Shown: positions 2,875-63,704 of the stretch, one piece after another
How positions within the stretch are numbered: position 1 is the first letter of the stretch
Layout of the letters: each line of letters opens with the position of its first letter
Assembly (NCBI GenBank): GCA_964023275.1
Contig: OZ029914.1
Span: 38,664,424 to 38,728,423 of the forward strand
Length of the DNA stretch: 64,000 bases
Source of the DNA: Norana najaformis
Lineage: Eukaryota; Annelida; Clitellata; Crassiclitellata; Hormogastridae
Reading direction: 5' to 3'
Notes under the pieces: model-generated
Databases searched by the model: none
The model's input: the letters and a program-made list of their open reading frames with translations, nothing else
Told to the model about the DNA's origin: nothing
Translations under genes and position numbers: made by a program

Positions 2875-3019
2875 GAACAACTGCGCGGCTTGTCAATTCC
2901 AGGGGAAATCCAAAGGAAGGACGACTGGAGATTTACTATGCGGGTGTTTGGGGAACTGTTTGCGACGACGGTTTCAACAATATCAATGCACAAGTTGCTT
3001 GTACCAGTCTTGGTTTTGG
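2875..3019 (+). CDS. Gene A exon: SRCR domain, N-terminal half
   Basis: This exon encodes the first half of a scavenger receptor cysteine-rich domain, an extracellular ligand-binding module. The reading frame shows R-L-V-N-S, E-G-R-L-E-I-Y-Y, W-G-T-V-C-D-D-G-F and A-C-T-S-L-G-F-G in the standard order. The acceptor is TTTTAG (AG at 2873-2874) and the donor GTAAGT starts at 3020. The exon enters in phase 1 and leaves in phase 2, exactly like the three gene B counterparts. It carries two cysteines; with four in the partner exon this gives six, the group A SRCR pattern, which is also the group normally encoded by two exons. The partner lies 13.6 kb downstream across transposon-filled intron. Upstream exons, including the signal peptide, were not found. 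Confidence 0.9.
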
Positions 3020-13819: not shown

Positions 13820-16560
13820 GTCAGTCTTCGCTTAAATCTGGCTCCAAGAATGTGCCGTTGAAGGCGACTGCATTAAAGCGCTGGATAGCGATGGAGAGGG
13901 GCTGGAACAGAAAAGAAGTCTCCCTTTTGTCTCCCGACACGAGATAAGTAGCGACCAAGTTTTTTATGGGGCTGATGCCTTCATGATTTGTGGGGCCGAG
14001 AGTCTCGAAGGCCAGAGGGACAAAGCAGTGTGTCGAGAAAACATCGGAGTATTTTGCAATCTTTCGTTCTGCTGCAATCTCCGCAGCAGCGCCTGCGATC
14101 ATGGCTGTTCTGGATCGGTACGAGTCTGCCAGAGTGTCAATTATTGTAACATCCCAGGTCAAGCATTTACCCCTTCCCAAGGAATGAGGGTTGCTCCATC
14201 AGGTCGCCGGCCGTCGGACCTAACCAATCCTGCTGGTTCTTTATTTGATGGAAAACCAGCCTTCGCAATTGCGCGCCAAACGATGCCATTGATCCAGGCG
14301 TGTCTTGCTGTTCTACCTGGGCCCAAAGGGCATACTAGGCCGTGAGAGCCGTCCGCAGTGACCAGAACTCCGCAGGGGCATTCATGAGGGGCGCACAAGT
14401 CTATCCCAAGTCTTAGGCCTGTTGCGATGCGAACAGCCTCATCGTCTAGCCTCAAGCCACAAGCACTTATGGGCAGCGCCAAGAGCCAGTCGCCAGAATG
14501 TGGTGAAGAAGCGGCCTTAAATCTAGCTTCGTGGTACTCGGATGTTATTGAGGCTCTGAGGGTTGCCAGACTCTTTTGGATAAGTGGGCGGTCCCAAGTT
14601 GCCTGTTTGTGAGATGTTGGGGCCTCGGGATTGGGGGCATTTGATTCGGTTGACCAGCGGGTCCGGGCCTGTTCCCAAAGGCCATCCGGGGGCAGGTCGC
14701 AAGAGGAAAGAATGGAATCTTGTAGCGCCTGGTACCTGCGGCTGAAGCCAAGGAGGCGGGAAATGCCAGCGAGGACGCGCGACGTATACCAAGACCTCCG
14801 TCTCGAACAGTTAAAGATGCCTGATCCCAGCTCTGATCAGCTAGAGCCAAGTTAAGCATGTTGGTGAGGCCTTTGCGCAGCAGTTGGTCGAATGTGTCGA
14901 GAGCCGGGTTGTACATGCATGGTGTGCAACGAAGTGTCTGAAGCAGGGTGCAAGAGCTTAGTGAGTTGCGAAGAAGAATTAGAGCATCATGGATAGATAT
15001 GGAAGCCAGACGGTCAATCCCTAGTGATAGTTGTGCACATCGCTTCTCCAGCGCATCGCTTAGAGCTCCGGAAAGAGGTGGGCTCAAAAGATAGGCATTG
15101 TCAGAAGGTGTGACCGTGAAACGGTCCAGAGGAGATAGCAGGTTACTAGATTGTATGTGTGTTATGACTTCGCACTTATTGACATTAAGTGTCAGACCCA
15201 TTTCGCCCGCGACCCTGATAATAGATTTGACGTCTGCAGCGGCTACGGATGCTTTCCCACCAAGAGTGAGGTCATACAGGTAGCCAATACGCAGCGGGGA
15301 AGAAAGGCTTGTCAGAAGCGACTGAATGGGTATACAGAAGAGAAGTGGATCTAGGGGATCTCCTTGCTGTGGACCTGTTTGTGAGAGTATTGTAAAATCG
15401 CCGTATTTAAGAGAGTAAGGTCTGGAATAAGGCAAACTGCAGTAGGGGTAGAGCTCCGGAATGACGTCCGATATCGCCGCCAGCATGTGAGTGCGGCTAA
15501 GGCTATTAAAGGCGTTGCTGGAATCAAGCTTGACCAATACTGAGTCGGGGTATAAATCAGCGAGAAAGCACCTGGGGGCGTGCACCGCCGCCTCACAGCC
15601 CCCTGGAGTCCCAACCCCTAGCTGGAAAGGGGCGAAGTTGTCAGATAGTTGAGCAATGGCGAGAGCGTTGGCACATTTAGAAGCCAGGCGTCGCCAATAG
15701 TAACCAATGGCAATCGCCGAACTCCTCCAATCTCTTCCTGAGGGCGAACAAGGTGCCGCCAAACAAATTTCGACTAATATCGACTGGACATATCCCTGCT
15801 AGCAAAAGGTTAGTAAGGGAAGTCAGGGATGTCACAAAGTTAAGGCCAACCTCGTTGTAGTTCACTAAGTCGAGGATGTGCTGGGGGCGAATTCCATCAG
15901 GACCCCCTGCCGAACCCGCCGGGAAAGAACGGACTGCTCGCAAGACCTCACCTTCGGTTACACAAAGAGGGGGCGTGTCTGAAGCTGATGGCAATGTCCC
16001 TTGCGTGCCTCGAGGCGGAAGATGTTTTGCATGCAGTTCCTCTGCATATTCCGAAACGGCCTGAATGGGCATAGAATTCTTACCGTGGCGCGTATGTTAC
16101 CATCCTTAAGTTTCCAGAAACCGCCCTTGCGATACCGTGTGTGTCTGATCTCGCGGTTGCACGTCTAAAGGTTAGTCCTGCCTCCACGGCGGGGATGGAA
16201 AAGCGAGCCCCTGCTGCCATCTTAGACCGAAAGGTGTCCACCCTCTTTTTGATGAGGTGGGTTAGGTTATGTCTCTTGCCCCCTCTTGTTGGATGTGCGA
16301 GAGTACAGCAGCCGAAGACTAGTAAACTAACCCAGGCGTCCCGATCTAGTGGGTTCTGAATAATGTTGTCGATGATTATAATCAGTAGATTAGCTATTGC
16401 CGGCCTTGCCCCTCTATGAGTGTGTTTAATCAGGTTGCCCGGATATCTAGGATGGTCAAGGTGAAAATCCACCGCAAAGAGATTTGATCAGTGTCTACTT
16501 TAGGGGAAGACAGCGATTGACTCTGACTGAGGGCAATGCCCGGCGCCGCAGGTGGGGCAA
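13820..16560 (-). mobile_element. LINE with zinc finger, RT and restriction-like endonuclease (R2-like)
   Basis: Read on the minus strand this gives, from 16560 downward, a C-P-T-C-G zinc-finger-like start and an upstream domain (R-G-G-K-R-H-N-L-T near 16270). The RT follows (15762-14545: G-P-D-G-I-R-P-Q, K-L-D-S-S-N-A-F-N, G-P-Q-Q-G-D-P-L, G-Y-L-Y-D-L-T-L-G-G). The C-terminus (14482-13821) has C-P-C-G..H-G-L-V-C..R-H and then R-P-D-G..P-W-E-G and W-D-V-T-I-I-D-T, the layout of the restriction-like endonuclease of R2/NeSL-type LINEs. The active-site F/Y-x-D-D position reads Y-L-Y-D instead of the expected Y-L-D-D. Frameshifts near 15750 and 14170 and stops near 16500 mark it as dead. Confidence 0.7.
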
Positions 16561-16649: not shown

Positions 16650-16813
16650 TCGTGTCGGCACCGTCAGCGTGGGTCGTTATCGAAGAGGAAGTGGACAGAT
16701 CTGGTTGGATGAAGTCCGTTGCAAGGGGACTGAAACAAGCCTCGACCAGTGCTCTGCACGGCCCTGGGGCTTTCACAACTGCGATCACAAAGAAGACGTG
16801 TCAATCAGATGTG
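16650..16813 (+). CDS. Gene A exon: SRCR domain, C-terminal half
   Basis: This exon completes the SRCR domain begun at 2875. It reads [12 protein letters not shown], then S-L-D-Q-C, P-W-G-F-H-N-C and D-V-S-I-R-C, with four cysteines in the expected places. It is 164 bases, the same length as all three gene B counterparts, and starts in phase 2 and ends in phase 1 (donor GTAGGG at 16814). The acceptor (GAAATTAG) has a purine-rich, weak pyrimidine tract. The R2-like LINE ends only about 90 bases upstream, so the original tract may have been displaced. Whether this exon is still spliced efficiently cannot be seen from sequence. Confidence 0.88.
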
Positions 16814-17532: not shown

Positions 17533-17687
17533 TTTCATGTTCTATTCGAAATACTTTAACTCGACACGTTTTTCTGGTTCCGTGTTGCCCTCAATTTTGA
17601 CCATTTTGTCTTGCACCCTTGTAAAATATGATTTTAAACAGATTGGGACCTGTGCATGTTTTAAGCCCTATTGCTACAATACACCAG
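17533..17687 (+). pseudogene. Relic CUB C-terminal half-exon
   Basis: Aligned with the functional exons at 22002 and 25839 this keeps the start TTTCATG, F-S-G-S-V-L-P-S-I-L-T-I, S-C-x-L-V and the GTAAGT donor after CCAG. The acceptor has changed from CTAGG to CTAAG. A one-base loss relative to the homologues shifts the frame between the acceptor and the conserved part. No matching N-terminal CUB exon precedes it in the 720 bases after the SRCR exon. I read it as a decayed third CUB domain, ending about 25 bases before an inserted LINE. Confidence 0.65.
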
Positions 17688-17712
17688 GTAAGTATTTGTT
17701 TCTATATTAGCA

Positions 17713-18795
17713 ATATGTGGTTTATGGCCTATCCTGCTCATCTTGGGTTACTTCCTTGTTTGGATTGCCTCAGAGATCAGTTTTGGGTCCATTGCTTTAT
17801 ATACTGTTTACTGCTGACCTTGGCTCTTTGCTAGCCGCGTGCTCGGCTTCAAGCCAGTCCTATGCCGACGATGTGCAGGCTTATGTTCATTGTTCTGCTT
17901 CTGATGCCGCAGCTGCTGTTCGAGCTATGTGTTGTGCTTCTGACTCCCTTGTGCCTTGGATGTCTTCAAATCGACTGAGATTGAATCCTTCCAAGACTCA
18001 ATATATTTGGTTGGGCACTAGGCAGCAATTGGCTAAAATCAATCTACGTGTACTACATTTAAAGTTTCCTCACATCACCTTCTCAGTCACTGTTTATGAC
18101 CTTGGCATTGAGTTGGATCAGGAGCTCTCTTTTAAGGCTCAGGTACATCGTCTTTGTCGTAGTTGCTACTACCAGCTACGGCAACTTCGTGTTGTCTCAC
18201 GTTCTCTCTCAGTCACCTCATCTAAAACTCTGGTTCATGCATTTGTCACTTGTCGGTTGGATTACTGCTCTTCTTTATATGTTGGACTCCCTGGTGTACG
18301 GCTTTTGTGCCTGGAACGTGTGTTACGGGCGGCTGCACCGCTTACTGGAGCATCTCTAGGTTTGGTCATGTCTCTGATTTCATGCGGGATGAGTTGCACT
18401 GGCTTACTATGAGGCAGCGCATCCACTATAGGGTTATCGTCTTTGTTTGGAACTCCTTGTTGGGTATTGCCCCCTCTTTCTTGAGGGAGCTTTGCCTACT
18501 TGTCCGGTCCAATTTGGGACGTGCTTCTCTTCGCTCCGCTGCTAGTGGTAATCTATTAGTGCCTCGCGCTCGCACCTCGACCATGCAGCGTCGTGCTTTC
18601 TCTGTTGCTGGCCCAACCCTCTGGAATGGACTTCCTGTTACTCTGCGTCTTCTACCTCGGGATTTTATTTCTATCTTCTATTCTTCTCTTAAGACTGTTC
18701 TCTTTCGCCGAGGTTGGTTTGGGAGCGCTTCTGAGTAGTTTTCTTGTAGGGGCGCTATATAAGTGTTCTGAATAAATAAATAAATAAAAATAAAA
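17713..18795 (+). mobile_element. 5'-truncated CR1/L2-like LINE, plus-strand copy
   Basis: The plus strand reads from G-L-P-Q-R-S-V-L-G-P-L-L-Y through S-Y-A-D-D-V-Q-A-Y, N-P-S-K-T-Q-Y and R-L-D-Y-C-S-S-L-Y to R-A-F-S-V-A-G-P-T-L-W-N, ending in an ATAAATAAATAAA tail. It is very similar to the minus-strand copy at 59316-61168. A small indel near 18345 splits the frame in two (17717-18412 and 18250-18738). Truncation begins at TGTGGTTTATGG (17713). High similarity of two dispersed copies suggests fairly recent activity. Confidence 0.88.
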
Positions 18796-20930: not shown

Positions 20931-21103
20931 ACTGTGGCAATACGTTGTACTCTGAACTTAGCGGACGAATTTCATCTCCCTATAATCCGGGAGTTCATCG
21001 GTATGCCCTAAATTGTACCCATTCCATCGCAGTACCTGCTGGACATAAAGCCGTTGTTAACTTTTTGACATTCAACATTGAGCTCCGAGATCACTGGACA
21101 GTA
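20931..21103 (+). CDS. Gene A exon: CUB domain 1, N-terminal half
   Basis: Encodes the first half of a CUB domain, an extracellular beta-sandwich module for protein or glycan binding. The exon starts in phase 1 so that the split codon becomes Asp, giving D-C-G-N. Then G-R-I-S-S-P-Y-N-P-G, L-N-C-T-H-S-I-x-V-P-A-G-H and the closing H-W-T follow. The two cysteines are the first CUB disulfide pair. Donor GTAAGT begins at 21104 and leaves phase 0; an in-register alternative donor three bases earlier (GTAGTA) is weaker. The sibling exon at 24860 is clearly homologous. N-C-T is a potential glycosylation site. Confidence 0.88.
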
Positions 21104-22001: not shown

Positions 22002-22170
22002 GTTTCATGTGAAAATGGGAATGCCTTTACTTTTAACTCGTCAAGTTTCTTCGGTTCAACTTTGCCCTCAGTTTTGACCATTGCATCTTGCAATCTTGTA
22101 AGAATTTGGTTTTACCTGGGTACATATTATCCCGGATCAGGTTTCAGTCTCGATTATGATATTATACCAG
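22002..22170 (+). CDS. Gene A exon: CUB domain 1, C-terminal half
   Basis: Completes the first CUB domain: V-S-C-E-N, S-T-L-P-S-V-L-T-I-A-S-C, L-V-R-I-W-F, then G-F-S-L-D-Y, the terminal strand pattern of CUB folds. It enters in phase 0 after TTTGTTAG and ends CCA-G with donor GTAAAT at 22171, phase 1. That is compatible with either a following CUB or SRCR exon. Together with 20931-21103 the domain is about 114 residues, the usual CUB size, with four cysteines. Confidence 0.88.
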
Positions 22171-24859: not shown

Positions 24860-25038
24860 ATTGCAGCAATAAGACCCACTCTGGAGAAATAGGAACAATT
24901 TCATCTCCAAGTTATCAGAATCCCATGCCGTATCGGAATGGCCTAAATTGTACCTATTTCATCTTAGTCCCATCTACTCATAAAGCCGTTGTTACCTTTC
25001 TGGCATTCACTACCGAGTCACCAAATGATTGGCTAACA
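24860..25038 (+). CDS. Gene A exon: CUB domain 2, N-terminal half
   Basis: Homologous to 20931-21103. The split phase-1 codon gives Asp, then C-S-N, G-T-I-S-S-P-S-Y-Q-N-P, L-N-C-T-Y-F-I-L-V-P, K-A-V-V-T-F and N-D-W-L-T. Donor GTAAGT at 25039 leaves phase 0. N-C-T is conserved from CUB 1 as a potential glycosylation site. The two CUB domains clearly arose by duplication of a two-exon unit. Confidence 0.88.
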
Positions 25039-25838: not shown

Positions 25839-26001
25839 GTTTCATGTACCACTGGAGAAGCCTTCAACTCGTTACGTTTCTCCGGTTCAGATTTTCCCAC
25901 AGATTTGACCATCCCATCTTGCAACATTGTAAGAATATGGTTTCATACAGGACACAATGTGACCAACACAAGTTTCAGTCTTTCTTATAAAATTGTGCAA
26001 G
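25839..26001 (+). CDS. Gene A exon: CUB domain 2, C-terminal half
   Basis: Homologous to 22002-22170. It reads V-S-C-T-T, S-L-R-F-S-G-S, L-T-I-P-S-C-N-I-V-R-I-W-F and then S-F-S-L-S-Y, ending CAA-G in phase 1 before donor GTATAT (26002). Two N-x-T/S sequons sit close together (N-V-T, N-T-S). The next coding exon in compatible phase is the transmembrane exon 3.6 kb downstream. Confidence 0.87.
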
Positions 26002-29607: not shown

Positions 29608-29736
29608 CTACTGCAGATCAAAATCCGAATTCAAGTACGAATGTACTTGTGGTGTCAGTACTTGCAAGTCTACTGGGTCTATGTATTCTTTTCGTGATAA
29701 TGTTCATCATCGGCACTACTTACAAAACTAGACAAG
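29608..29736 (+). CDS. Gene A exon: stalk and transmembrane helix
   Basis: The exon enters in phase 1 and reads a short polar stalk (T-A-D-Q-N-P-N-S-S-T-N). A single hydrophobic segment of about 23 residues follows (V-L-V-V-S-V-L-A-S-L-L-G through F-I-I-G), then the basic stop-transfer T-Y-K-T-R-Q. Donor GTAAGT starts at 29737, phase 1. The helix has no charged residue, so association with a separate signalling adaptor through a membrane charge pair is not suggested. The acceptor is a tandem CAGCAG (29602-29607), so an isoform starting at 29605 with one extra alanine is likely. Type I orientation is inferred from the upstream SRCR and CUB domains. Confidence 0.85.
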
Positions 29737-31012: not shown

Positions 31013-31263
31013 AAAGAGACCGTGTTTTGCCTGGAATTCAGTTGAATACCATTGCACCTTCTGGGCAACATGGAATCAATCTAACTGAAGCCAAAACTGG
31101 AGAAACTGGATATGAAGGTCTTCGATCGTCAGGATTCTACGAACAATACGATGAAATAAATGCTAATGAATATCAAGCAGTAAACGAACTCAGCGACAGC
31201 CCTTGCCACGAAAAACAAAACGACCAATTCTACGACGAAATTGATCCAACTATTTGTTTTTAA
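31013..31263 (+). CDS. Gene A terminal exon: cytoplasmic tail with ITAM-like motif
   Basis: The exon enters in phase 1 (split codon Glu) and encodes an 83-residue tail ending TAA at 31261-31263. The tail has no cysteine-rich module and is rich in acidic and tyrosine residues. Y-E-G-L (31111-31122) and Y-D-E-I (31147-31158) are separated by exactly eight residues, with Glu three before the first tyrosine. This fits the ITAM consensus (D/E-x-x-Y-x-x-L/I, six to twelve, Y-x-x-L/I) that recruits tandem-SH2 kinases of the Syk family. Further tyrosines occur as F-Y-E-Q, E-Y-Q-A-V and a last F-Y-D-E-I near the C-terminus. The ITAM reading is by consensus; function is inferred. Confidence 0.85.
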
Positions 31264-31376: not shown

Positions 31377-31382
31377 AATAAA
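31377..31382 (+). terminator. Polyadenylation signal of gene A
   Basis: AATAAA lies 114 bases after the stop codon of the tail exon, giving a short 3' UTR of roughly 135 bases. Confidence 0.65.
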
Positions 31383-50018: not shown

Positions 50019-50184
50019 CAATTACAAGAGATTTCACCGTGCGACTGATTAAATGGCAATCTTTCGAAAGCAATCCAGTGGAAGGACGATTGGAGATCTA
50101 TTACAATGGAATCTGGGGAACCGTTTGCCATGACGGATTTACAAATGCCAGTGCCAGAGTGGCTTGTGCCAGTCTCGGCTTCGG
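50019..50184 (+). CDS. Gene B exon: SRCR 1, N-terminal half
   Basis: Enters in phase 1 after TGTTTTAG and reads F-T-V-R-L-I, S-N-P-V-E-G-R-L-E-I-Y-Y-N-G-I-W-G-T-V-C and H-D-G-F-T-N, then V-A-C-A-S-L-G-F-G, leaving in phase 2 (donor GTGACT). His replaces the usual first Asp of the C-D-D motif. Two cysteines. The partner is at 50829 after a 644-base intron that contains a LINE end. Confidence 0.9.
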
Positions 50185-50334
50185 GTGACTGCACTTTACC
50201 AATTAATTTAATACGATGTAATAGCAAAGTTATATAGCACCTTTAAACAACACATTGTTTGGGAGAGAGTAAGCCAGTAACCTTTATCCTATCCTATGTA
50301 AGATAGAACAGAAGAATAGCAAATCATCTTTGTA

Positions 50335-50645
50335 ATAATAATAATAATTAGCAACTTCTAATGCGCCGGTGTCTGATGCACAAGCAACAACCGATGGCGC
50401 ACCAAAACCAAGCCACAATCGGGTCGATATCCAGAAGGTCAGTCCACACGACAGAGAGGCAGCCTATGGTGAATAAGCAATTTGAAACGTAAGTTTTAAG
50501 TTGAGAACGAATTGACAGGAGCGACTGAGCTGAACGAACAGACACAGGGTGGGAATTCCAGAATTTTAGTCCAGCAACCGAAAAAGCTCGTTTATCCAGA
50601 ACAGTTCTAGCCCAAGGTATGACCAGAGAAAGACAATCAGATGAA
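50335..50645 (-). mobile_element. LINE ORF C-terminus inside the SRCR 1 intron
   Basis: Minus strand reads L-D-K-R-A-F-S-V-A-G-L-K-F-W-N-S and S-Q-L-K-T-Y, typical of CR1/L2 LINE ends, with an AAT-repeat tail at 50335-50348 on the plus strand. Confidence 0.6.
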
Positions 50646-50828
50646 AGCGGTATTAATTAAAATGCCACAACTTTTCCACCTTAGTGCTAGAGTTGGTGAT
50701 CGGTATTAAGATTTAAAAAGTGTCAGTGTTTATTCATTTCTTCATTCTGTTTATTGTATAATTTCATTTGTGACGTCGTTAATAAGTATTCTTAAACTGT
50801 GCAGTGTGTTACTGTTTTAATGTACCAG

Positions 50829-50992
50829 CTACTTCGGTGCATTCATCGGCAATCGTCATGGCGGTGCAACCGGAAAAATCTGGTTGGACGAAGTCAGCTG
50901 TAATGGAAACGAATATGGAATCGACAAATGTCGGCACGGAGTTTGGGGTTCACACAATTGCTACCACAGTCAGGATGTCTCAATCAGCTGTG
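50829..50992 (+). CDS. Gene B exon: SRCR 1, C-terminal half
   Basis: 164 bases, phase 2 in, phase 1 out (donor GTAATA). Reads G-A-F-I-G-N-R-H-G, G-K-I-W-L-D-E-V-S-C, G-I-D-K-C, V-W-G-S-H-N-C and D-V-S-I-S-C, four cysteines, completing a six-cysteine group A SRCR domain. The acceptor is GTACCAG after TTTTAAT. Confidence 0.9.
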
Positions 50993-50999
50993 GTAATAT

Positions 51000-51885
51000 T
51001 GCTATAGAAATATTAGTAATGTTTTCATTAAAATGCGAATAAGTTCCCCTCTGTTGATCTTTGTATGCTTTACATGTAACCTGTTTATGCACTGAGCTTT
51101 GAGAAATGGTTTTTTCCAACAAGTGTACTTATGTCTCATCTATTCAAGAGCCACACAATTATAATTTTCATTCCAATCACCTATACACAATTATCTATAA
51201 TAGACAAGATGCTGTTTTGAAAATAGTATTCTTATTATGAAGATACAAAATAGTATTTTACATGTATTCTAAAATACTTCAGTAAAATTTTCAAACTGCT
51301 TTGATATAAAGTATTTTGAGTAATTAAAATAATTGTTAAGATACTCTTCACAAAAATACTTTCTAGATAGAGACTGCGTGACATGTCTTTCAAGTACAGT
51401 GCTGCACTTCCATAAATAGCACCTTGAATGGCACAATGATTGGCATAGCTAAGCAAAATCGACTTTGCCCAGCGTCGTTTGAAAGTCATGCATTACAACG
51501 GTGTTACTTTATGTCTGCCACTTTTATAGACAGACTGACAAAGACACCTAAATTGGAAGTTTGAGAGAGACTCGCAGCATCATTAGTAGTGACTGTCCCC
51601 TCATTGCACTATAGTTTCAACGTTGGTGATGTAAACTTTGTTGATCGGAATGAGCACTTGTACAGTACTGTTACTCCCAACAGCAAAGACATATGCAGGA
51701 CATAACCAGCCCACGTGCCAATATTCCCAAAATGGGCTTAATACATGCTACATGTCGGCAACATATGTGCTACATGTACTCGGTCCAGGCGATATGTTCA
51801 ACTACCAACATGTATCTAACGCAACATTCTTGTAAAAAAATTATTTAAAAACATGCTGTTTGTGGATTCTAACACTTTGCTGCAG
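51000..51885. other. Intron sequence between SRCR 1 and 2
   Basis: No exon recognised. Includes short AT-rich frames without support. Confidence 0.5.
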
Positions 51886-51889
51886 GTCA

Positions 51890-53150
51890 GTCTGTCAGGT
51901 TTTAGGAAAACCACTCTGCAGAGTCCTTCCTCTTGGTTCACCTGCTTTCAGATAAACATGACGTCATGGCTAGGGCCCAGGTTCCCCTTTTGGTTCTGTT
52001 TGATGTTAGTGTGGTCTTTGACACGGTGGATCACGATATTCTTATTCGCCGATTATCCGTCTCATTCAGTATATCTGACAAGCCGCTCGACTGGCTTCGC
52101 TGGTTGTTGCATGGGCGCACGTCCTGCACATTGTTTCATTCGACCTCGATGGGCTGCCCCTCCCTGTGGCCTGCCGCAAAAGCTCTGTTCTTGGCCCAGA
52201 ATATCCACACATTGTACACTGCAGATATTAGAACTGTTCTGGCCTTCAAGTGTGTTTTGAGCCAGTTGTATGCTGATGTTATTCAGACTTACTTGCATTG
52301 TACGGCATCCGATGCCCTTAATGCAATGACCATAATACAACGGGTTATGGGGCCTAGAGACACTGACATCGCCCAATCAGTTGCACCTCACTGCATTCAA
52401 AAGCAGTTTATGTGGCTGAGTAATAGGCAGCAGCCGAGTAAAATTGACTCTTTGACAATAGCTGCTGACTTCCCTCGCTTATTCTTTTCTACTTCCGCTC
52501 GTAATCTTTGGGTTGTCTTTGACCAACACACACACACACACTCTCTCTCTCTCTTATCACTAAAACTTTTCTGTCGTGCATGCATTTATCAAATGCACCA
52601 CCTGCGAATTATTTTTCGTTCACGTTCGTTGCAATTACCCTTGTCGATCCTTTCTTTAGCATCAGGATGGACTACTGTTGTACAATCTATGCGGGTCTGC
52701 CCTTGAGGTGCATTGGGCAGCTTGAGAGCGACTACAAGGCTCTGTTTGATCACATATCGCATTATATGTGATGTACTTTATTGGCTACAAATTTCGCAGC
52801 ACATCGAATGTAAAATTTCGATTTGGGTCTGGTGATGCCAATCAAAGAATGCGCCTTCCTACTTGCATGAACTTTTTGCCTATCCAGGGTTTGGCTGGAA
52901 GCAGAAATCCTCGCTTCTTGCCCCGCCATGAAATTGTCTTTCGTTTTGCTCGAACTATAACAATGCGGCGCCTTTTCAGTCGTTCAGTCCCTATGTAGAA
53001 TTCGCTCCCTCTGCGTGTATTTCTGGCTATGGATGCTAGATACACATACCACCAATGGTTGAAAACTGTTCTCTTTCATAGGGGCTATGGTGGAAGCCCT
53101 CCTGGGTATTCAACTTGAAGAGGTGCTATATATAAATCATCTTAATGAAT
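51890..53150 (+). mobile_element. Degraded CR1/L2-like LINE
   Basis: Plus frame 51933-52706 reads L-L-V-L-F-D-V-S-V-V-F-D-T-V-D-H-D-I-L, L-D-W-L-R-W-L, then Q-L-Y-A-D-V-I-Q-T-Y in place of Y-A-D-D-V-Q. The thumb continues in other frames (52580-52998) and the 3' end is GAGGTGCTATATATAAATC. The catalytic Y-A-D-D is lost. Same family as 17713-18795 but much older. Confidence 0.78.
52525..52554. repeat. CA/CT dinucleotide microsatellite
   Basis: CACACACACACACACA followed by CTCTCTCTCTCT inside the degraded LINE. Confidence 0.95.
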
Positions 53151-53699
53151 GAATGACTATGTAGGACATGGAAATACCATCATATTCTCAATACATTTTT
53201 CATCGCAGGACGTCGGTGTTGGGATAAAAGGATAATTATTTGTCCCGGTATAATGAACCAGAAATTAACAGCATTATAGTTTGGGTTCGGGTTTGCTTAT
53301 TTCAGCTGTGTAGCCTTTACTTTGCAATTTTAATTCGCTGAATAAAACTTAGGCTAAACCTTTGAGACATTACATGTAGCTAAAAGTTTAGAATTCATAC
53401 GGATCTAAATTCACTTTTTGAGTATTTCATTTTAACCATTTAACGTATATATCACTTAAATCATTGTGTTGTTCTGAACATACCTTAATCCAAATGTCAC
53501 TACTGTAATATTGATTCTCATAATGATTGAAACTATTTCTTGTGTTGGTTTAAATGTTGTGAAGCTTCACTTTATCTCTTTCTTCTTTATTGAAATCAAG
53601 CACATAGTATCAGATGATGCACAGTGGATAGCCTCTTGCATGACAGGATAAAGCGGCAAACACCAAAATTTACAAAACTTTAAGACCTGCTTATTTATT

Positions 53700-53930
53700 A
53701 TTATTTATTCAATAAAACCATGCAATCTTAAACTTAATACTCCATTCTACAAGAAGCCAGTGAAGCTCACAAAAGCAATCTAAAGCAGTTTATGAAGAAG
53801 AATAACAACTCACAGCACCAGACAGAGTTTTGAACTCTTTAACGCCTTTTTACATTGAAAGAGGATATACTATATAGCACCGTATTTGTATAGTCTAATC
53901 GAAAACCGTTAAGTGCACAAGAAATCAGTT
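53700..53930 (-). mobile_element. Probable LINE RT fragment
   Basis: Minus strand near 53905-53870 reads F-D-Y-T-N-T-V-L-Y-S-I, resembling the R-L-D-Y-C-N-S-V-L thumb motif of LINEs, followed by R-V-Q-N-S-V. TTATTTATTATTATTTATTC at 53691-53710 could be the tail. Confidence 0.45.
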
Positions 53931-55573
53931 TTAGTCATGTCATCTTTCAGAGAAAGCTAGATGTAACGAAATACCCTGATATCTTAGAAAAAAGACCTGC
54001 AAAAAGAAGATCCGTGTGAATTCGTGATTAGCGAGTTGTCAATTGTTGCTAGGCACTGAACCTAGCTGCGGTCAATTGTTGGTTGTTGTATCGTGGACAT
54101 GCAGAACAGATGAACCATCCAAAACGATAACAGTTAGATCTAATTGAATCAATGAGGCACTCGTACAGGAAAATAAGCCGCCAACAACAGTCACCCGAAA
54201 TCAAGGACGTCCATTATTGACTGCAATGTCAGAAGAACAAGTGCCATCCACTCCCATACCAGACGATGGATCAGGAAGACCAAATGGTCCCAAAAAGAGA
54301 TCTGTATTTATTGTTGCCTGTGATGTGGTGCGGTATGACAAAGTCGGACATTTTCCAGCTCATTCAGAATCAAAACAGATATGAAGAGTTATGTGCGTAT
54401 GAAATGCATCAACTGTAACTGCAAACTTTGTATAACCAAGGACAAAATATTGCTTCCTTACTTATCACACATGCCAAATTATGACTCTACACTTGTTTAA
54501 GTACTCATGTGTGTCATCTGATAAACTGTGATAAGTTCTTTTGTTAGTCCAGACATTAAGTCCTGTAGACGCCAAATGGAGTCATTTTCAAAAATCCGAA
54601 ATGAAGTTTCTGATTAAACGTTCAATCGGTATTTTTCAAAATATGATATTGATTTTTAAAAAGACAACGAAAGTTGTTTTTGTTCTAAAAATTTTAATCG
54701 GGAACGAAAGGGTTAAAGCGAAACCAAATGTGAAGAGAGGGCATCAGAGATTTAGTTCGTTTTTTGATGAGAGATCTTTTGCAGATACAATAAGGTCATC
54801 AGGTTAATTGTTGCATGCATTATTAATTGTTAGGCCTAGTAAAATTTAATTGTTTGCACGATTTAATGAGCAGCCATGATTTTTTGAACCTGTAATGTGT
54901 GGTAATAGAACTAAGTATTACTAAATAGTAACCTAGTAAGACTTTATATAATAAAAACACTTAGTGGCATACCCTTCACATTTAGTTTAATAAAACGAAG
55001 TTCAGCGTTTACTCCTAGACAGTCCAAAAATATATTTGAAACCAATTACATTGCCACTGGAATATATGAAAAGTTACGACATAGCAATATAAATGTGACT
55101 TAGATGACAAACTTGTGGAATGACCTATAAGAAGCTTAAAACAAAGCCGTAATTAAATGCGATGAACAGCCTAGTTAAAAATGATATATTAGTAATGTAT
55201 AAAATAATTTGCAAGAAAACAAACGTATTTTGAAAAAGTATTTTCACAATAATAAGTCTGTTTTATTATGTATTTTCAAAATGCTTTTTGAAGTATTTTG
55301 CACATCACTGGAGATAATGTCTGCGTTCGCTACAAGGATTACTAAAAAAAGCATATGACCTTCTTCTAAATGGAGAAGTGGAATCTTTTTTGTCTGAAAA
55401 TAAGGAGTAATGTAGCAAAGAAATGGTTTTCTCTTAAAATACGACTGAAACAATTTGAAAATAAAACTTCGTCCTCTTAAGTAGATTTTGTTATGTGACA
55501 TACATTAACTCTAATAGCTGAGCAAATGACGGCACATCATCATTTGGTATGCAACAGTGTTATGTTCTTTTAG
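53931..55573. other. Intron sequence upstream of SRCR 2
   Basis: AT-rich, no exon recognised. The 88-codon lysine-rich plus frame at 54541-54807 has no known match. Confidence 0.45.
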
Positions 55574-55739
55574 GAACTTCTGCCGCTTTTGCCATCCGAC
55601 TTGTCAATTCGCTCTCTCTTGTCAGCAATCCAATGGAAGGAAGATTGGAAATCTTCTACAACGGAATCTGGGGCACTATTTGCAATGATAGCTTCACCAA
55701 TAGCAGCGCCAGAGTCGTATGCGCCAGTCTGGGTTTTGG
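55574..55739 (+). CDS. Gene B exon: SRCR 2, N-terminal half, GC donor
   Basis: Phase 1 in after TTCTTTTAG. Reads A-I-R-L-V-N-S, S-N-P-M-E-G-R-L-E-I-F-Y-N-G-I-W-G-T-I-C-N-D-S-F, V-V-C-A-S-L-G-F-G. At the position where all sibling exons have TTxxGG|GT this exon has TTTTGG|GCAAGC, so a GC-AG intron is the simplest reading. No GT donor in register lies nearby; the frame runs on to a stop at about 55777-55779. Otherwise intact. Confidence 0.85.
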
Positions 55740-57061
55740 GCAAGCTTATTTCTTTTTGTTAATCTTATATTTATGTTAAATTTAAAATGCATCATTCATA
55801 ATTTTATGCGAGTGGCTTTCTCATTCAGTTCATTAGAGCTTAATTGTAAAAATGAGACACCATCTTCAGTCAGAAATTGAGTAATTTTTATTATGGTCAA
55901 GCAACAAGCAGGCCTATGACTAGCCTACATTTTTATGATCAGAATTTCGGATTTTCCTATCTTAGCCTGGATTCTATGTTTAGCTACAAGCAAGTGCTCG
56001 TGAATTAACAATACAATGACAGCGAGGCATTAGAGAGAAGTTATGGACGTCTTACAGTTGTCTTAATGCATGGCATTTATTATGACTAATTGCAGTTTTG
56101 TAGTTCGAATTGAATATGACATTATATATTATGCTTTTGGTGACAGGTTATACAAATACCATCAGAACTTCGATAGTGCCAATGTATTAACGTTCAAAAC
56201 TTCAGTAGATGATCTCTTCTAAGCAGAATAGACGTTAATGTCAAATTTTAAAGTGAGTACGGTCAGAATCCAAGAAAAAATCCGAGAATATGTGGACATG
56301 AGTCAAGGAGTAGACGTGCTTTAGTCGTGTTCTGAAGTCCAACAGAGATTCTAAATAGCTAAAGTTTGCCGGAAGAGGGTGACGGAAAAGGTTCTCTCGC
56401 CAAGAGCTTTCCTTGACTATTGATTTGTTCAATTACAACAGTCCGAGGATTTGGCCTCGAAGAGATAAGTCTTGGGAACCAGCATAGTGACGATAGCGAA
56501 TTAAGAGCCTTTTAATTTTGATGAAGAAGATTAGGGCAGAGTTATTCTGAAAGTTATTCTTAACTTATTAACTTATCAACTAAACTTATTGGAAGTTATT
56601 CTCTTTCCAATGGACAGCCAATGCAATGATCTAGTTTTAGGTGATACATACATTCGTACTCTGAAATTTTAGAGATCGCTCTCCCCGTGGCGTTTAAGAA
56701 TATATAAAGCTTCATCCAGTTAGGCTTTGGAAGCGATTTGCAGTAGGCAAGACGGCATAACAGTCGTTCAATAGCCAAGCAAACCAAGGCTGAAAAATGA
56801 ACATAGTGCCTAATGCTACTGATGTCCATTGTACAATTTCATTTATACCAAGCGTAACATGTTTGAAGTCAAATTGTGTGTTTCGCTGTACTTTCACACA
56901 ACAACAACAATAATAGTAGTAGTAGTAATAATTATAATAATGATAATGATAATAATAATAATAACGGTTGACTATAATACAATGTTTGCCTTTATCTTAT
57001 AACAGACTAAAATATTTATGGTTATACGAATAATTTCTTGATTGCATGTGCGTTCAATTAG
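55740..57061. other. SRCR 2 internal intron
   Basis: Contains a probable minus-strand LINE remnant (56220-56460) and a trinucleotide-rich tract (56897-56966, AAC/AAT/AGT/GAT units). No exon. Confidence 0.5.
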
Positions 57062-57225
57062 ATCTGTTGGCGCATTAATTAATCATCGTCATGGCAATGG
57101 AATTGGTCAAATCTGGTTGGATAATGTCGTTTGCGCTGAAACTGAACAAAGCATAGACAAATGCTCGCATAATGATTGGGGTTCACATAACTGCAACCAC
57201 TCCCAAGATGTCTCGATTAGTTGTG
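57062..57225 (+). CDS. Gene B exon: SRCR 2, C-terminal half
   Basis: 164 bases, phase 2 in after GTTCAATTAG, phase 1 out (donor GTGAGT). Reads G-I-G-Q-I-W-L-D-N-V-V-C, S-I-D-K-C, D-W-G-S-H-N-C, D-V-S-I-S-C with four cysteines. Strong donor and full conservation argue that it is in use despite the GC donor of its partner. Confidence 0.9.
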
Positions 57226-59315
57226 GTGAGTAGAGAAGCTTTTGGGTTCTATATGATCTTTGACTTGAATAAAGATAAGCTACAACGTATTTCGCTTTAG
57301 TTTTTCAGTGGATCAAACTCTGCTACTAAATGTCTTCAAAGCTATAGTTCCCGTTTAAAAAAAGCTCTTAAGCTGAGAATATTCGAAAGATGTAAACTGA
57401 AGAGCAAATTATATATGATTTAAATAAAACGTTCAGGTTATAGCACGCTTTTATATTCAAGAGTCTTTACTCTGGACTACGCATACCATTGTGGCAAGTC
57501 TCCAATAAAAAGGTCTCCAATAAAATTAACTATGCCAACGCTATTTGGTATCCAAAAAACAAAGACAATTTTATATTGCTATTGCTCAGGACATTTTCTT
57601 ACAAAAGAAACAAAACCGAGAGAGATTTTGTTGAAAATCCATTTGAATATATAATTTAGTGGGCATTTGGGTAGGTGTTGCGGTCCACATTGCAGAATAA
57701 ACTGTTGAGTTTCTCCTCTTACACCTTAACAACCGATTGTCTCTAACGCTCTACTCAGAAGACTACTGCCTTCAAACTAACTCCCTAGTCTAATTGGTTC
57801 CCTCTTTTGTAGCCCATCCCCTTGATCTCGAATGTTCCAATATTAAATTTGACCAGAAAAGAAACGTTTAACTCCCTGCTCATAAAAAGTCGATACGATC
57901 TACACGGATGGCTTCGAAGATCCAGCGTTGATCGCACGTCTTGTCCTCTTTCCGATCTTTCCGTTGTGCTATTTGATGCTGATCTATAAGCACGAAGAAA
58001 AGTGTACACTCCTCGTTTCCAATTCTTATTCTCACTCTGCGTTATCTGATGCGATTTCTTTAGATTCCGCATAAATATTTCCACTTCACCGTTTGCTCTC
58101 GGTCAATAAGGAGTTATGCGTCGACGAATAAAACCGGGACTTCTCAGCAAGCTTTCAGAATTGATCACTGTTGAATGGAGGGCCATTATCATTTTTTACA
58201 GTGACTGGTAATCCAAACATTAAGAAAACTCGATGAAATGCTGGAATCACTGCGTTGCCCGACGTAGTAATGACTATCTCAGCGACTGGATACCTTGAAT
58301 AGTCAGTAAGAATAAGTCAGTAAGTCAATAAGTTCATAAGAACAAGTAAGTATTATCCGCTTGGCAATCAACCGCAGAAACCACTCGTCAGCTCTTCCCA
58401 CTGAAGCGGTTCCGAAAACGTTTCCGGTGTGACTGTTTGGCAAGCCGAAGAACTTAACAATATCAAAGTATTGTTGTGTTCTTCGGCTGTGCAACCACAT
58501 ACGATTTTGTATGCAAGCCGAAGAACTTAACAATATCAAACCATTATTGTGTTCTTCGACTGTGCAACCGCATACTATTATGTCGTCGCTAATATGCATA
58601 ACGCCAGGGATGCCATCAAATATCTGCGCTATGGTATTTTGAAGCACCTCGGTAGCCGAAGAAATTCCAAAATTCACTCTCTTTTAGCGAAACAAACTCA
58701 TATGAGTAGAAAACGTTGTGATGCAACGGCTAGAGGATCTAGTTCCAGTTGATGGATCTAACTTTGAAAATTTCCTCGGCCCGTTTAGGTCACAATTGGC
58801 TCGATTCGCTTGACGCATGTCAACACAAATGCGTAATTTATCCGGTTCTTTAAGCATTACCGGCTTTATTTTGGGCGACATCCAATTCGTTGGTCCATCA
58901 AATCGTTCAGTAATGCTTCTTGCTTATGAGGAACGGAACCCTTCCATATTGTTGTGCCGATGGTTTAACACTCTGATCAATGTGAAGTTTTACCTTGAAG
59001 TTGTTCAGCTATTGTCCTATTCCTTTGAAGAGCTGAGTACATTTGTTTGTCAGCCACTCAGTCGTTAATGGTTCCATAAGTTCTATGGCATTGAGGTTGA
59101 TTAAATCTATCCTAATTCCGATGCAGTCTCGAAACTTAACAGCGAACCTTTGTTTCATCGAGCAACATAAAACTCAGCGGTTGTAACGTTTCCTTTATGC
59201 TTCACTTGAGTTTCGAAACAACCTATAATCTCTAGTGGTTATTTAGATGCGTATGAATTTATTCTAGTCTGCGACCGCCTGAGATTCGGATGATCAGGGA
59301 ATATTTGGAACGTAG

Positions 59316-61168
59316 TTTATTTATTTATTTATACGGAACACTTATATAGCTCCCCTTCAAGAAAACTACTCAGAAGCGCTCCCAAACCAACCTCGGCGAA
59401 AGAGAACAGTCTTAAGAGAAGAATAGAAGTGAAGTCCCCGGGTAGAAGACGCAGAGTAACAGGAAGTCCATTCCAGAGGGTTGGGCCAGCAACAGAGAAA
59501 GCACGACGCTGCATGGTCGAGGTGCGAGCGCGAGGCACTAATAGATTACCACTAGAAGCGGAGCGAAGAGAAGCACGTCCCAAATTGGACCGGACAGGTA
59601 GACAAAGCTCCCTCAAGTAAGAGGGGGCAATACCCAACAAGGAGTTCCAAACAAAGACTATGACCCTATAGTGGATGCGCTGACTCATAGTAAGCCAGTG
59701 CAACTCATCCCGCATGAAATCAGAGACATGACCAAACCTAGAGATGCCACCAATAAGCCGTGCAGCCGCCCGCAACACACGTTCCAGGCACAAAAGCCGT
59801 ACATCAGAGAGTCCTACATATAGAGAAGAGCAGTAATCCAGCCGACTAGTGACAAATGCATGAACCAGAGTCTTAGATGAGGTGACTGAGAGAGAACGTG
59901 AGACAACACGAAGTTGCCGTAGCTGGTAGTAGCAACTACGACAAAGACGATGTACCTGAGCCTTAAAAGAGAGCTCCTGATCCAACTCAATGCCAAGGTC
60001 ATAAACAGTGACTGAGAAAGTGACGTGAGGAAACTCTAAACGAAGTACAGGTAGATTGATTTTAGCCAATTGCTGCCTAGTGCCCAACCAAATATATTGA
60101 GTCTTGGAAGGATTCAATCTTAGTCGATTTGAAGACATCCAAGGCACAAGGGAGTCAGAAGCACAACACATAGCTCGAACAGCAGCTGCGGCATCAGAAG
60201 CAGAACAATTGAACATAAGCCTGCACATCGTCGGCATAGGACTGGCTTGAAGCCGAGCACGCGGCTAGCAAAGAGATAAGGTCAGCAGTAAACAGTATAT
60301 AAAGTAAGGGACCCAAAACTGATCTCTGAGGCAATCCAAACAAGGAAGGAACCCAAGGTGAGCGGGATGGGCCATAAACCACACAGAGCATGCGCTCAGA
60401 TAGAAAAGAGGCCAACCAATCGAGAAAGTTGTCAGATAAACCAACAGAAATAGCCAGACGTTCCAAAAGTATAGCATGATCGACCGAATCAAATGCAGCA
60501 CTAACATCAAATAATGCAAGTAAGGTAACTTGAGAACGATCTATGGCATCATGTATATCAGACAGAAGTCGAGTTAAGAGTGTCTCAGTAGAGTGAAATC
60601 TACGAAAGCCAGATTGAGAAACAGGTAGTAGATCATTAGTTTCGGGATAGGTAACTAAATGACCAGATACAATTCTCTCAATGTCCTTGGACAAAAAAGT
60701 AACATTAGATATTGGTCGAAAGTTAGACATGTCCGAGACGTCGAGGCCATCACGCTTGAGAACCGGAATGACGATGGACTTCTTCTGAGACGGAGGTAGA
60801 AGACCCTCTGCCAGTGAGCGATTGCAGAGGAGGGTCAGGAAGGGAAGAAGAACGTCGATATACTGCTGAATGAGGAACGGCGGTAGAGAGTCTAGTTCAC
60901 AGGATTTTGGTCGAGAGGCAAGGATGAGTCGACGCAACTCATCTGAAGAGACTTGATGAAGGACCGAGAGCCGCTTAGCCGTCGGTAGCAGGACAGGCGG
61001 AGGACTACCAGCAGTAGCATCACGACCAGAGCGAATCTTGGCCGCACAGAACTCAACGAAGTCAGCAGCAGTAAAGGACGGTAGTACATCACCAGCGGAG
61101 GAACGTCGACGACCCAATAGGTCGTTAAGAGTAGACCAGAGCCGCTTGTGATCACCAGTGTGGTGATC
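59316..61168 (-). mobile_element. CR1/L2-like LINE inserted in the gypsy relic
   Basis: Two long minus frames (61117-60194 and 60237-59329) overlap by 44 bases and together form nearly a complete RT. They read N-F-R-P-I-S-N-V, F-H-S-T-E-T-L, F-D-V-S-A-A-F-D-S-V-D-H, P-Q-R-S-V-L-G-P-L-L-Y, S-Y-A-D-D-V-Q-A-Y, through R-A-F-S-V-A-G-P-T-L-W-N to an (AAAT)n tail at 59316-59331. A single frame change near 60200 separates them. The endonuclease domain is missing (5' truncation near 61168). Closest relative in the window is 17713-18795. It interrupts the gypsy protease. Confidence 0.9.
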
Positions 61169-62184
61169 ACAAGAGGATCACTTTTGCCAGTTTTTGTCTA
61201 TGATATGACACTAGCACCTGAATCGATCATCATTTCAACTGTGAAACCATTAATAAAAACGCGGGCACAGTGTTATTTCATTCTTATCTTTTCTTCAAGA
61301 GCAAAAGCGTACTCATCTTCTTTGTCTTCATCTCTCATATATTCCTTCATTTCTTCATGGACTCGAAGGATTTGTAAGCTCTTGCAGTGTTCTGAGTACT
61401 GTTTCTTTTACTATGTGATGTAGCTCGTTAAAATTTAGGGATGCTAAGACATAGTCTCTGGAAATGGTTTTGTTTATTGCAAGTTAAGCAGGTTTCACCG
61501 TTCTGGGCACTGTATTTTCCCACCGGTGTGGATACCGAAGACCACAATTACGACATACCTGTTTACTGCTTCTTAGTTTCTTGACCGTATGCTGACGCTT
61601 TGGTTGTCTTGATTGATTAACTACTCCAGCAAATTGTCGATTGTCGGTGTCTCCCTCAAGGAATTCCGTTTCGCTGACTTTTGCCGGTCGCTCAGACGTC
61701 TGCATCGCGCGGGCTGTGTCCAACAAACTTTCAGCATCATTTTCGAGTCTGCAAGTCCCACTTTTGTTGATGTGATGTTTGAATAATATGAGATTTTATC
61801 CTTTCATCTACGTTCGAAAAGTTAGAGTATTTGGTTAGAGAACGAAGCCTTGCGTGATAAATGTCTGTGGTGTCATCAGTATTTTGTCTGACTAAGCGAA
61901 AGTTATATATTTCGAATTCAACGTTTTTCTTTCGACTGAAATGTTCGTCAAGCGCACGTTTCCTCGGTAAGTAAACGTTATTCTCACCTGGGTCTGCATC
62001 GTCTGGTACTACTTTCACGATCAGTCCTTTGAAGATAGATGTCGTATACATTCACTTTATCTATTGCTTCTCAGGTATTCCATTCAAAACTGGTTTCACC
62101 TTTCAACAAATCCCACTCTGATTAGTCTTACCATTTCTCTCAACTTAAATACAACCCACCCTAGTCTCCTCTTCCCTCCCGTCT

Positions 62185-62335
62185 CTGGTCTCCTGGCAAC
62201 CGGGCTTGGTTTTTGACTTGGAATCTTTGGACAACCCAACGTACTTGACAGCGCTCGTTAATAAGCTGGTGTCCTGCACTTAGCTTTTAAGGAGCGCTTT
62301 AGCAATTTTGAGTTTACGACTACGATTACAGCTTC
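62185..62335 (+). repeat. Interspersed repeat family R, copy 4
   Basis: Diverged plus-strand copy (AGCGCTCGTTAATAAGCTGG, TTAAGGAGCGCTTTAGCAAT, GTTTACGACTACGATTACAG) inserted between the gypsy leader and Gag. Confidence 0.6.
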
Positions 62336-62932
62336 TCCCGTAGGTTGTAGGAGGGTTGCACGTTTTTCCATGTTGTCGGTTATGTTGAACGCCGTCTTCA
62401 GATTTTCGAATCTATCAGTCCAGTTCTTCACAGAAGTGCCGCTGACGCCGAATCCACGTCAAGGATACACGGTGCGAATTGGGACGATGTCCCGTGTTTT
62501 GTCATTTTTACTGTTTCAAACTCTCCAGCTGCCTTTCTCCTCGTCGCCAAATGTTGTGATGTCTTACAGCAAAACAATTGCCTTCCTGTTACGCTATGCT
62601 GCTAAAGGCTAGTAACTTCTAGATAACTCGCAAACCCTATTGGTACCATCTTTTGTAGCCATCCTCTTGATCTCCAATGTTCCAATATTAGGTACTGTAA
62701 ACAAAATCAAAACTGACATTAAAATCTACAAAAATTTAGAGTCGAAACGCATCTTCTCGTTTCTGAAGGTCTTATATTTATTATGTTAATGCAGGTTAGG
62801 ATTCATGTTTTGGTGACTGTCTGAATATCTGTCCCATTTGTGTTAGGCTTAAATGTGCTGAATCTTTCCATAACCACTGCTGATGTATGTAAGATACCAA
62901 CCAATTTTTGTGTTGTGTCGTTCATTTTTTAG

Positions 62933-63086
62933 GAGCAACTCCAAGACTCGTCAATTCGCTATCCTCTGCGATCAATCCAGTGGAAGGAAGATTAGAGATA
63001 TATTACGCTGGAGAATGGGGAACTGTTTGCGATGATAGTTTTACAAATATAAGCGCTAGAGTGGCATGCAAAAGCCTGGGTTTCGG
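62933..63086 (+). CDS. Gene B exon: SRCR 3, N-terminal half
   Basis: Phase 1 in after TTTTTTAG. Reads P-R-L-V-N-S, N-P-V-E-G-R-L-E-I-Y-Y-A-G-E-W-G-T-V-C-D-D-S-F, V-A-C-K-S-L-G-F-G; phase 2 out with donor GTAATT. It shares A-G-x-W-G-T-V-C-D-D with the gene A exon at 2875, closer than to SRCR 1 and 2 at that point. Confidence 0.9.
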
Positions 63087-63439
63087 GTAATTCCACACCT
63101 AATAATATGTTTAAGCTTACAAGGCGGGGCTGAGCTTCTTGCAATAAACGTTTTAGTGTACAATCAAAAGTTTAGGAACTAATGCAATACTCAGTTAAAC
63201 ATGAAAATGAACCAATTTGACTGTATTTAGGGGCTACTGTTCAAATAAATGATAGAATTGAGCAATGTTTTACTTTCAATTATATTGTTTAAGTTACACA
63301 ATTACCGTTTTTAGGATGTTTAAAGCTCAAAAAGGTGTTTTCTCTAGAGCGCTGTTTCAGCTTTATTTAATTATAGGCCATAGTGTTTAAGACAATTTTC
63401 ATATCTACGACCTATTATATAAAACCTGACGTGTAATAT

Positions 63440-63500
63440 TGTTCTTCTTCTTCCTTCTGGCTGGAATTAATCCCTCCTAGGGGAGGGGTCAGCCACGTGT
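63440..63500 (-). mobile_element. RTE-type LINE 3' tip
   Basis: Reverse complement reads GTGGCTGACCCCTCCCCTAG followed by GAGGGATTAATTCCAGCCAGAAGG and a GAA-repeat tail, the same 3' end as at 11955-11995. Confidence 0.6.
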
Positions 63501-63704
63501 AATATTGTTTCATTAAGTCCTGGGTCAAGTGTACTACCGATTCTTTGTATTAAATATGTTGGTGAAGGCATCAGTGTGTCAAACTAGTACATTAAGCTTT
63601 TGCGTGCGCCGTTTCCACGCCAGCATCAATTAAACAAATTCTAGAACACTGACTGTTAGCACGAAGAATTTTTTGTTATATTTCTTAATTATGCATCATT
63701 TCAG

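Follow-up and report, generated by a model that had tools for sequence, protein, structure and literature searches.

Does an annelid encode scavenger receptors that carry their own signalling motif? The question is raised by a window of 64,000 nucleotides from Norana najaformis (C2:38664424-38728423), in which an initial annotation had described a receptor with SRCR and CUB domains and a complete ITAM in its cytoplasmic tail. We analyzed the window together with the genome that was searched, 608 Mb in 17 contigs. In keeping with an annelid genome, the annelid erythrocruorin-linker family Eryth_link_C has 29 matches in it, the best at 118 bits against a cut-off of 27, and none in 14 control genomes. 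AGR codons at glycine sites of L039, a nuclear copy of a mitochondrial sequence, at first suggested the ascidian code, but a tunicate origin was rejected, since AGR also occupies several serine sites and the sequence resembles annelid COX1.

In the window gene model, exons for SRCR, CUB, CUB, a transmembrane (TM) segment and a tail join in one frame without stops. The four junctions on which the proposed receptor depends, 16813/20931, 22170/24860, 26001/29608 and 29736/31013, are all exact GT/AG splice sites that leave the frame unbroken, as had been claimed. Four additional SRCR modules, located within the 30 kb upstream of the window, join in frame to these exons, giving a model of 16 exons and 890 codons with no stop, whose 5' end lies further upstream. 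Pfam finds five SRCR and two CUB stretches in the 890 residues (SRCR at 3.5e-137), and SRCR and CUB are the only families in this modelled part, which does not include the 5' end. Phase-1 introns flank the SRCR and CUB modules. A GC donor occurs once, outside the window, and the remaining internal donors are GT. The last SRCR module is split, its N-terminal half lying 13.6 kb upstream of its C-terminal half, and each CUB domain is also made of two exons. The features of the window gene are as follows.

2875..3019, + strand: exon for the N-terminal half of the last SRCR module (ag/gt borders, in frame; Pfam SRCR on the joined protein)
16650..16813, + strand: exon for the C-terminal half of the last SRCR module (Pfam SRCR 2.6e-14; splice borders)
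20931..21103, + strand: exon for the first half of CUB 1 (Pfam CUB 6e-5 on the open stretch; splice borders)
22002..22170, + strand: exon for the second half of CUB 1 (no Pfam match alone; in-frame join, CUB in the joined protein)
24860..25038, + strand: exon for the first half of CUB 2 (Pfam CUB 6.9e-6 on the open stretch; splice borders)
25839..26001, + strand: exon for the second half of CUB 2 (no Pfam match alone; in-frame join, CUB at residues 652-760 of the joined protein)
29608..29736, + strand: transmembrane exon with uncharged core (splice borders; paralogous TM exons)
31013..31263, + strand: cytoplasmic tail exon, 83 residues with four YxxPhi motifs (AG before the exon; stop TAA at 31261-31263)
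31102..31158, + strand: ITAM-consensus stretch ETGYEGL-x8-YDEI (Tyr1 codon 31111-31113, Tyr2 codon 31147-31149)
31171..31182, + strand: third motif, YQAV, with Tyr3 (present in 18/18 aligned tails)
31231..31242, + strand: fourth motif, YDEI, with Tyr4 (present in 15/16 aligned tails that reach this position)
31377..31382, + strand: poly(A) signal AATAAA, 114 bases beyond the stop codon (read from the letters)

Other elements lie between and around these exons. Two reverse-transcriptase-like open reading frames were recognized by eye, at 14545-15798 (-) and 17711-18412 (+), the former within the 13.6-kb intron that divides the last SRCR module. The intron before CUB 1 holds a degenerate CUB second half (17555-17635), perhaps from a lost third CUB. 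A tandem array at 2011-2342 has a 46-base unit in 7.2 copies with 95% matches, and three SRCR exon pairs at 50039-63867 probably belong to the paralogue that follows, with its tail at C2:38767962.

The hydrophobic core of the TM exon contains no Asp, Glu, Lys or Arg, in agreement with the uncharged membrane helix first reported, and a charged core is absent from all ten family TM exons recovered (the window and nine others; the core of L029 has a His). A scan of 294 kb, which stops short of the 5' end of the window gene, showed no signal-peptide-like exon for this gene; one of its two matches, in the intron between the TM and tail exons of the window, is likely due to chance.

The tail was checked letter by letter. 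It reads ETGYEGL-x8-YDEI, the eight intervening residues being RSSGFYEQ, followed by YQAV and YDEI, exactly as first described. The full ITAM consensus is thus present in its strict form, [DE]xxYxx[LI]x6-8Yxx[LI], which 374 of 200,000 shuffled versions of the window tail also contain; the looser form, YxxPhi-x6-12-YxxPhi, arises in 6,215 of 200,000. These frequencies bear on an endocytic explanation, according to which the proteins are scavenger receptors whose YxxPhi motifs act as AP-2 sorting signals for clathrin uptake, and the ITAM match would arise incidentally from having four of these signals within 83 residues. YxxPhi is also the AP-2 endocytosis consensus, but the recurrent acidic form Y[DE]E[LI] suits SH2 docking more than AP-2. 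Similarly, the frequency of the loose pair among the shuffles favors sorting signals, and that of the strict form argues against them. Even with the internalization of ligand by short-tailed CD163, as described in excerpts of two papers (PMC3511184; PMC2681482), we consider the endocytic explanation quite unlikely.

The tail exon is a member of a family. A search of the genome with this exon gave at least 20 matches, all on C2; two of them are one exon, leaving 19 exons, of which 17 are on the + strand at 38.24-39.05 Mb, one is at 38.01 Mb (-) and one at 43.6 Mb. Exon similarity and position indicate that roughly eighteen related receptor genes stand here in tandem. Eighteen tails were aligned; the nineteenth (38013331), which is interrupted by a stop and has neither Tyr1 nor Tyr2, was excluded from the counts. 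An additional partial tail occurs at 38246844.

The ectodomains of the paralogues are predicted from exon matches and their positions rather than from full gene models. SRCR exons lie upstream of at least 13 of the 17 main-cluster tails among the matches listed, and a separate check added a 14th; among the same matches, none precedes tails 38612415, 38949931 and 39047773. First-half CUB exons are found upstream of 11 of the 17 tails, and 10 of these 11 have at least two. Members 38246409 and 38275187 have an SRCR-TM-tail layout with no CUB match, and members 38308184 and 38347425 have degenerate CUB pieces at most. Upstream of the first SRCR exon of member 38246409, by 0.7 kb, is a signal-peptide-like exon, MTATKVLIVYVLVHLLLVLQNNMASAQQ.

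Three of the 18 aligned tails appear decayed or truncated: 38981110, which is frameshifted and was trimmed prior to alignment, 39015653, which has an early stop, and 39047773, which is diverged. The cluster might accordingly be a decaying tandem array containing many pseudogenes, with the window gene itself perhaps silent. Tails 38013331, 39015653 and 38981110, each interrupted by a stop or a frameshift, point in this direction, together with a deletion in one upstream SRCR C-terminal exon and the degenerate CUB piece at 17555-17635. Nevertheless, the window gene reads without interruption through its 16 exons, which have splice sites (one with a GC donor), its poly(A) signal is present, SRCR exons show dN/dS values of 0.31-0.38, and one paralogue has the signal-peptide-like exon mentioned above, all of which makes general decay highly improbable.

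The conservation of the four tyrosines differs between motifs. Every one of the 18 aligned tails has Tyr1 (YEGL), always followed by Leu at +3, and Tyr3 (YQTI), whose +3 residue is Ile or Val. Tyr2, which completes the proposed ITAM, is present in 13 of the 18 and absent in five. The strict ITAM is found in 11 of the 18 tails and the loose form in 12, and the interval from Tyr1 to Tyr3 is free of indels in 18/18. The initial annotation had staked its reading on both ITAM tyrosines being kept among paralogues, which is true of Tyr1 but not cleanly of Tyr2.

This pattern gives room to the main competing explanation, in which the tail is not an ITAM but a multi-site phosphotyrosine docking tail, each YxxPhi motif acting singly and the x8 spacing being incidental. 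YDEI and YEEI would suit Src-type SH2 domains, and the other motifs PLC-gamma, PI3K or Grb2, as in the tails of CD5, CD6, WC1 and LAT. The better conservation of Tyr1 and Tyr3, compared to the Tyr1/Tyr2 pair, is what independent docking would predict, whereas the full strict ITAM in 11/18 tails and the fixed Tyr1-Tyr3 interval are not.

Substitution rates were compared along the tail and between tail and ectodomain. The eight motif columns (each Tyr and its +3 position) change at 0.10, about half the tail average of 0.21 (p 0.011 by permutation against random tail columns), and substitution is lower still in the four Tyr columns (p 0.008); both p values are rough, because the permutation assumes exchangeable columns and the sequences are related. 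Strict invariance gives a weaker signal, with two of the four Tyr columns among the 9 invariant columns of 75 (p 0.068) and three of the eight motif columns (p 0.050), and we therefore rely on the substitution-rate permutation and on P0012, a relative described below. The stretch from the ITAM to Tyr3 has a pN/pS of 0.68 compared to 0.72 in the rest of the tail, indicating no extra constraint overall. Constraint on single motif columns, rather than on the ITAM stretch, again favors docking. With Tyr3 retained more often than Tyr2, and no special constraint on the ITAM stretch as a whole, the ITAM and independent docking are poorly separated by these data.

The median pairwise dN/dS of the tails is 0.65 (153 pairs). 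SRCR exons gave 0.31 between two recent duplicates and 0.38 in each of two wider comparisons, and the tails of the same three pairs gave about 0.33 for the recent duplicates (dN and dS of 0.070 and 0.210) and 1.07 (0.29 and 0.27) and 0.70 (0.19 and 0.27) for the wider pairs. The tail is thus less constrained than the SRCR exons in the wider pairs, though not in the recent duplicates. A tail evolving faster than the ectodomain is thus a pattern of the family which is not true of each pair. The three SRCR comparisons give no sign of a diversifying ectodomain, as in allorecognition, and with SRCR values of this size the self-recognition role that had been put forward as one possibility is unsupported here.

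An independent relative shows which parts of the tail are retained. With a 456-residue part of the window protein as query, 242 proteins matched; among the best 120 of the 242, P0012 alone shows CUB beside SRCR, and the others are often named DMBT1, CD163 or WC1. P0012 is an unnamed 511-residue open reading frame on a contig of 2,589 bases, too short for such introns, which suggests that it is a transcript. It has a signal-peptide-like start, an SRCR-SRCR-CUB-TM layout and a tail with four YxxPhi motifs, and is 51% identical to the window protein over 226 SRCR-CUB residues, although it has two SRCR and one CUB where the window model has five and two. Its motifs, DSGYDKL, IYDEL, NYIDV and IYDEI, occur in the same order as ETGYEGL, QYDEI, EYQAV and FYDEI in the window tail, so that GY[DE]xL, YDE[LI], YxxV and YDEI are all kept; the third motif is only loosely alike, the remainder of the tail is dissimilar, and P0012 also has tyrosines outside YxxPhi. 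Shuffling the P0012 tail 200,000 times yields GY[DE]xL with two Y[DE]E[LI] in 4 cases, for patterns picked post hoc from both tails.

The retention of these motifs in an otherwise unlike tail suggests that the tyrosine motifs are its functional content. The gap between the first and second motifs is 13 residues in P0012, outside the 6-12 range, compared to 8 in the window tail, which argues that the precise ITAM spacing is peculiar to the window's cluster: the eight-residue spacing is fixed in the aligned tails but not in this relative. Motifs retained while their spacing differs are also what independent docking would produce. Residues 764-890 of the window model had no match among 158 candidates in a search of 5.8 billion proteins; the CUB-TM-tail part of P0012 matched only itself in the protein collection (7,994 candidates scored), and the P0012 tail gave nothing at E 1 in the Norana najaformis genome (5 candidates).

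A Syk/Shark-type kinase had been proposed as the partner of the receptor. We searched the genome with a human SYK kinase piece and a SYK tandem-SH2 piece. The kinase piece matched exon pairs, at 62-71% identity, at C1:32.494 Mb and twice at C7:1.217-1.233 Mb, in loci that span C1:32.49-32.51 Mb and C7:1.217-1.240 Mb and have 62-73% identity per exon, and upstream of each of the three kinase loci are both N-SH2 halves and the first part of C-SH2; we term these loci Syk-like from exon similarity. Read from the letters, the three loci have GLYLLR in the N-SH2 exons and SDFGMS[KR]AL and KWPLKWYAPECI in the kinase exons. Two of the three loci are neighbours, on C7, and a fourth, more diverged tandem-SH2 set is on C14. 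Among the best 60 of 792 PDB matches, 24 ZAP-70/SYK entries align with the C1 kinase piece at 178-182 bits, TYK2 at 132 bits and ABL at 108 bits, the top entry being an EGFR-labelled chain with 200 bits in two stretches. The presence of Syk-like kinases argues against docking alone, which also draws on the need for one tyrosine in WC1 signalling, as described in excerpts of PMC3511184 and PMC2681482; on balance, we find independent docking a rather improbable explanation of the tail. The genome also contains a Bcl10-like exon (46% over 81 residues) and a CARD-CC-like exon (35%), each a one-way match.

Taken together, these results favor, with a rough probability of 0.57, self-contained tyrosine-signalling scavenger receptors, probably Syk-coupled at least where the ITAM is full. 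The type I model with its own tyrosine tail, the uncharged membrane segment and the paralogues with the same tail support the proposal that the receptor carries its motif itself. The interpretation first given holds for a coherent type I receptor model that includes a tyrosine tail, in a genome with Syk-like kinases, but less well for the ITAM pair as such. The family would be a germline-encoded tandem set of type I scavenger receptors, in which the SRCR chain, followed in many members by CUB, may bind a microbial or damaged-cell ligand. Clustering could then give Src-type kinases access to the tail and its YxxPhi motifs, of which there are up to four. In members with full spacing, doubly phosphorylated Tyr1 and Tyr2 might recruit one of the three tandem-SH2 Syk-like kinases, which possibly signals onward to CARD-coiled-coil/Bcl10. 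The outcome would be uptake or activation, in a phagocytic or immune role.

In excerpts of a 2018 survey, Syk/ZAP-70 homologues whose SH2 domains bind ITAMs are reported from invertebrates possessing Bcl10 and CARD-CC, a co-occurrence taken there to indicate conserved upstream ITAM receptors (PMC5978004). The cluster provides a concrete candidate class for such receptors, in a genome that also has Syk-like, Bcl10-like and CARD-CC-like exons. A bolder hypothesis, possible but doubtful at present, is that the cluster is the missing receptor layer of the invertebrate Syk-CARD-Bcl10 pathway: polygenic germline SRCR-CUB receptors with built-in ITAMs would act in annelids as WC1 and Fc receptors do in vertebrates, and loss of Tyr2 would yield weaker or decoy receptors.

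Several known receptors share parts of this design. The WC1/CD163 family is defined by an SRCR-only ectodomain without CUB; CD5 and CD6 are SRCR receptors with tyrosine tails, also with no known CUB; Draper, MEGF10 and CED-1 are not known to have SRCR or CUB; and tails such as those of LAT and CD6 serve as docking platforms. DMBT1 resembles the window gene in being SRCR-rich with CUB domains, but it is secreted or ZP-bearing and is not known to have a tyrosine signalling tail. The window gene has two CUB domains between SRCR and membrane, and its SRCR exons are split, for which reasons we do not file it under WC1/CD163; the EMI and EGF-like domains of the Draper/MEGF10/CED-1 group are absent from its modelled part. 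By analogy, the predicted receptor would work most like WC1 and CD5.

The following comparisons draw on excerpts of the cited papers. WC1 is a thirteen-gene bovine family with multiple SRCR domains and signalling tyrosine tails, similar to the cluster described here, but each of its SRCR domains is one exon, whereas in the window gene each is two half exons. Furthermore, WC1 is a vertebrate TCR co-receptor of ruminant and pig gamma-delta T cells with group B SRCR domains, and neither CUB nor a full ITAM is named for it in these excerpts (PMC3511184, PMC2681482). The pseudo-ITAM of CD5, YSQP-x8-YPAL, shares the x8 spacing of the window tail, but CD5 has three SRCR domains and its motif is off consensus, while that of the window is complete (PMC5983667). 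If our reading is right, the pairing of SRCR with an ITAM-like tail, imperfect in CD5, has a complete consensus in a protostome. Draper and MEGF10 are single-pass receptors with their own ITAM that recruit Shark or Syk; the Draper/MEGF10/CED-1 group differs in its EMI/EGF-like ectodomain and NPxY motif (PMC8092387).

The clustered FcoR genes of Botryllus form a multigene set of type I receptors whose tails bear hemITAM, ITIM and YxxI/L/V motifs; they differ in their Ig and sushi ectodomain, their pairing with fester genes and their role in allorecognition (PMC12065747). Receptor clusters of this sort, with hemITAM or YxxPhi motifs in the tails, are therefore already known from invertebrates. 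Together with Hydractinia receptors and the Halocynthia ITAM protein described in PMC5465252, they show that ITAM or hemITAM receptors outside vertebrates extend further than the initial annotation, which named Draper, had suggested. In the annelid Olavius algarvensis, an SRCR repertoire of 25 unigenes has been read as serving microbe recognition, its partner domains being lectin, trypsin, EGF, LDL-receptor and Ig, and the words CUB and Syk each occur 0 times in the main text of that paper (PMC5117596). Among the matches listed in open-licence PMC, by titles and abstract openings, we found neither an SRCR-CUB-ITAM receptor nor an annelid ITAM receptor. What is new is nevertheless less than first claimed: SRCR receptors with tyrosine tails (CD5, WC1) are already known.

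Related exons extend beyond the cluster. Among the matches listed, SRCR and CUB exons are spread over C2:36.3-39.0 Mb; at C2:36566989-36583765 (-), equally scoring SRCR exon matches recur about every 1.38 kb, which suggests a recent or homogenized SRCR array. Beside the CUB exons at C2:36.65 Mb, a 6-kb stretch held no convincing TM and tail. A further CUB exon array, distantly similar to the window CUB, lies at C6:0.69-0.85 Mb. L039 (C15:412 kb) and a second locus at C15:570 kb are nuclear copies of mitochondrial COX1 with internal stops.
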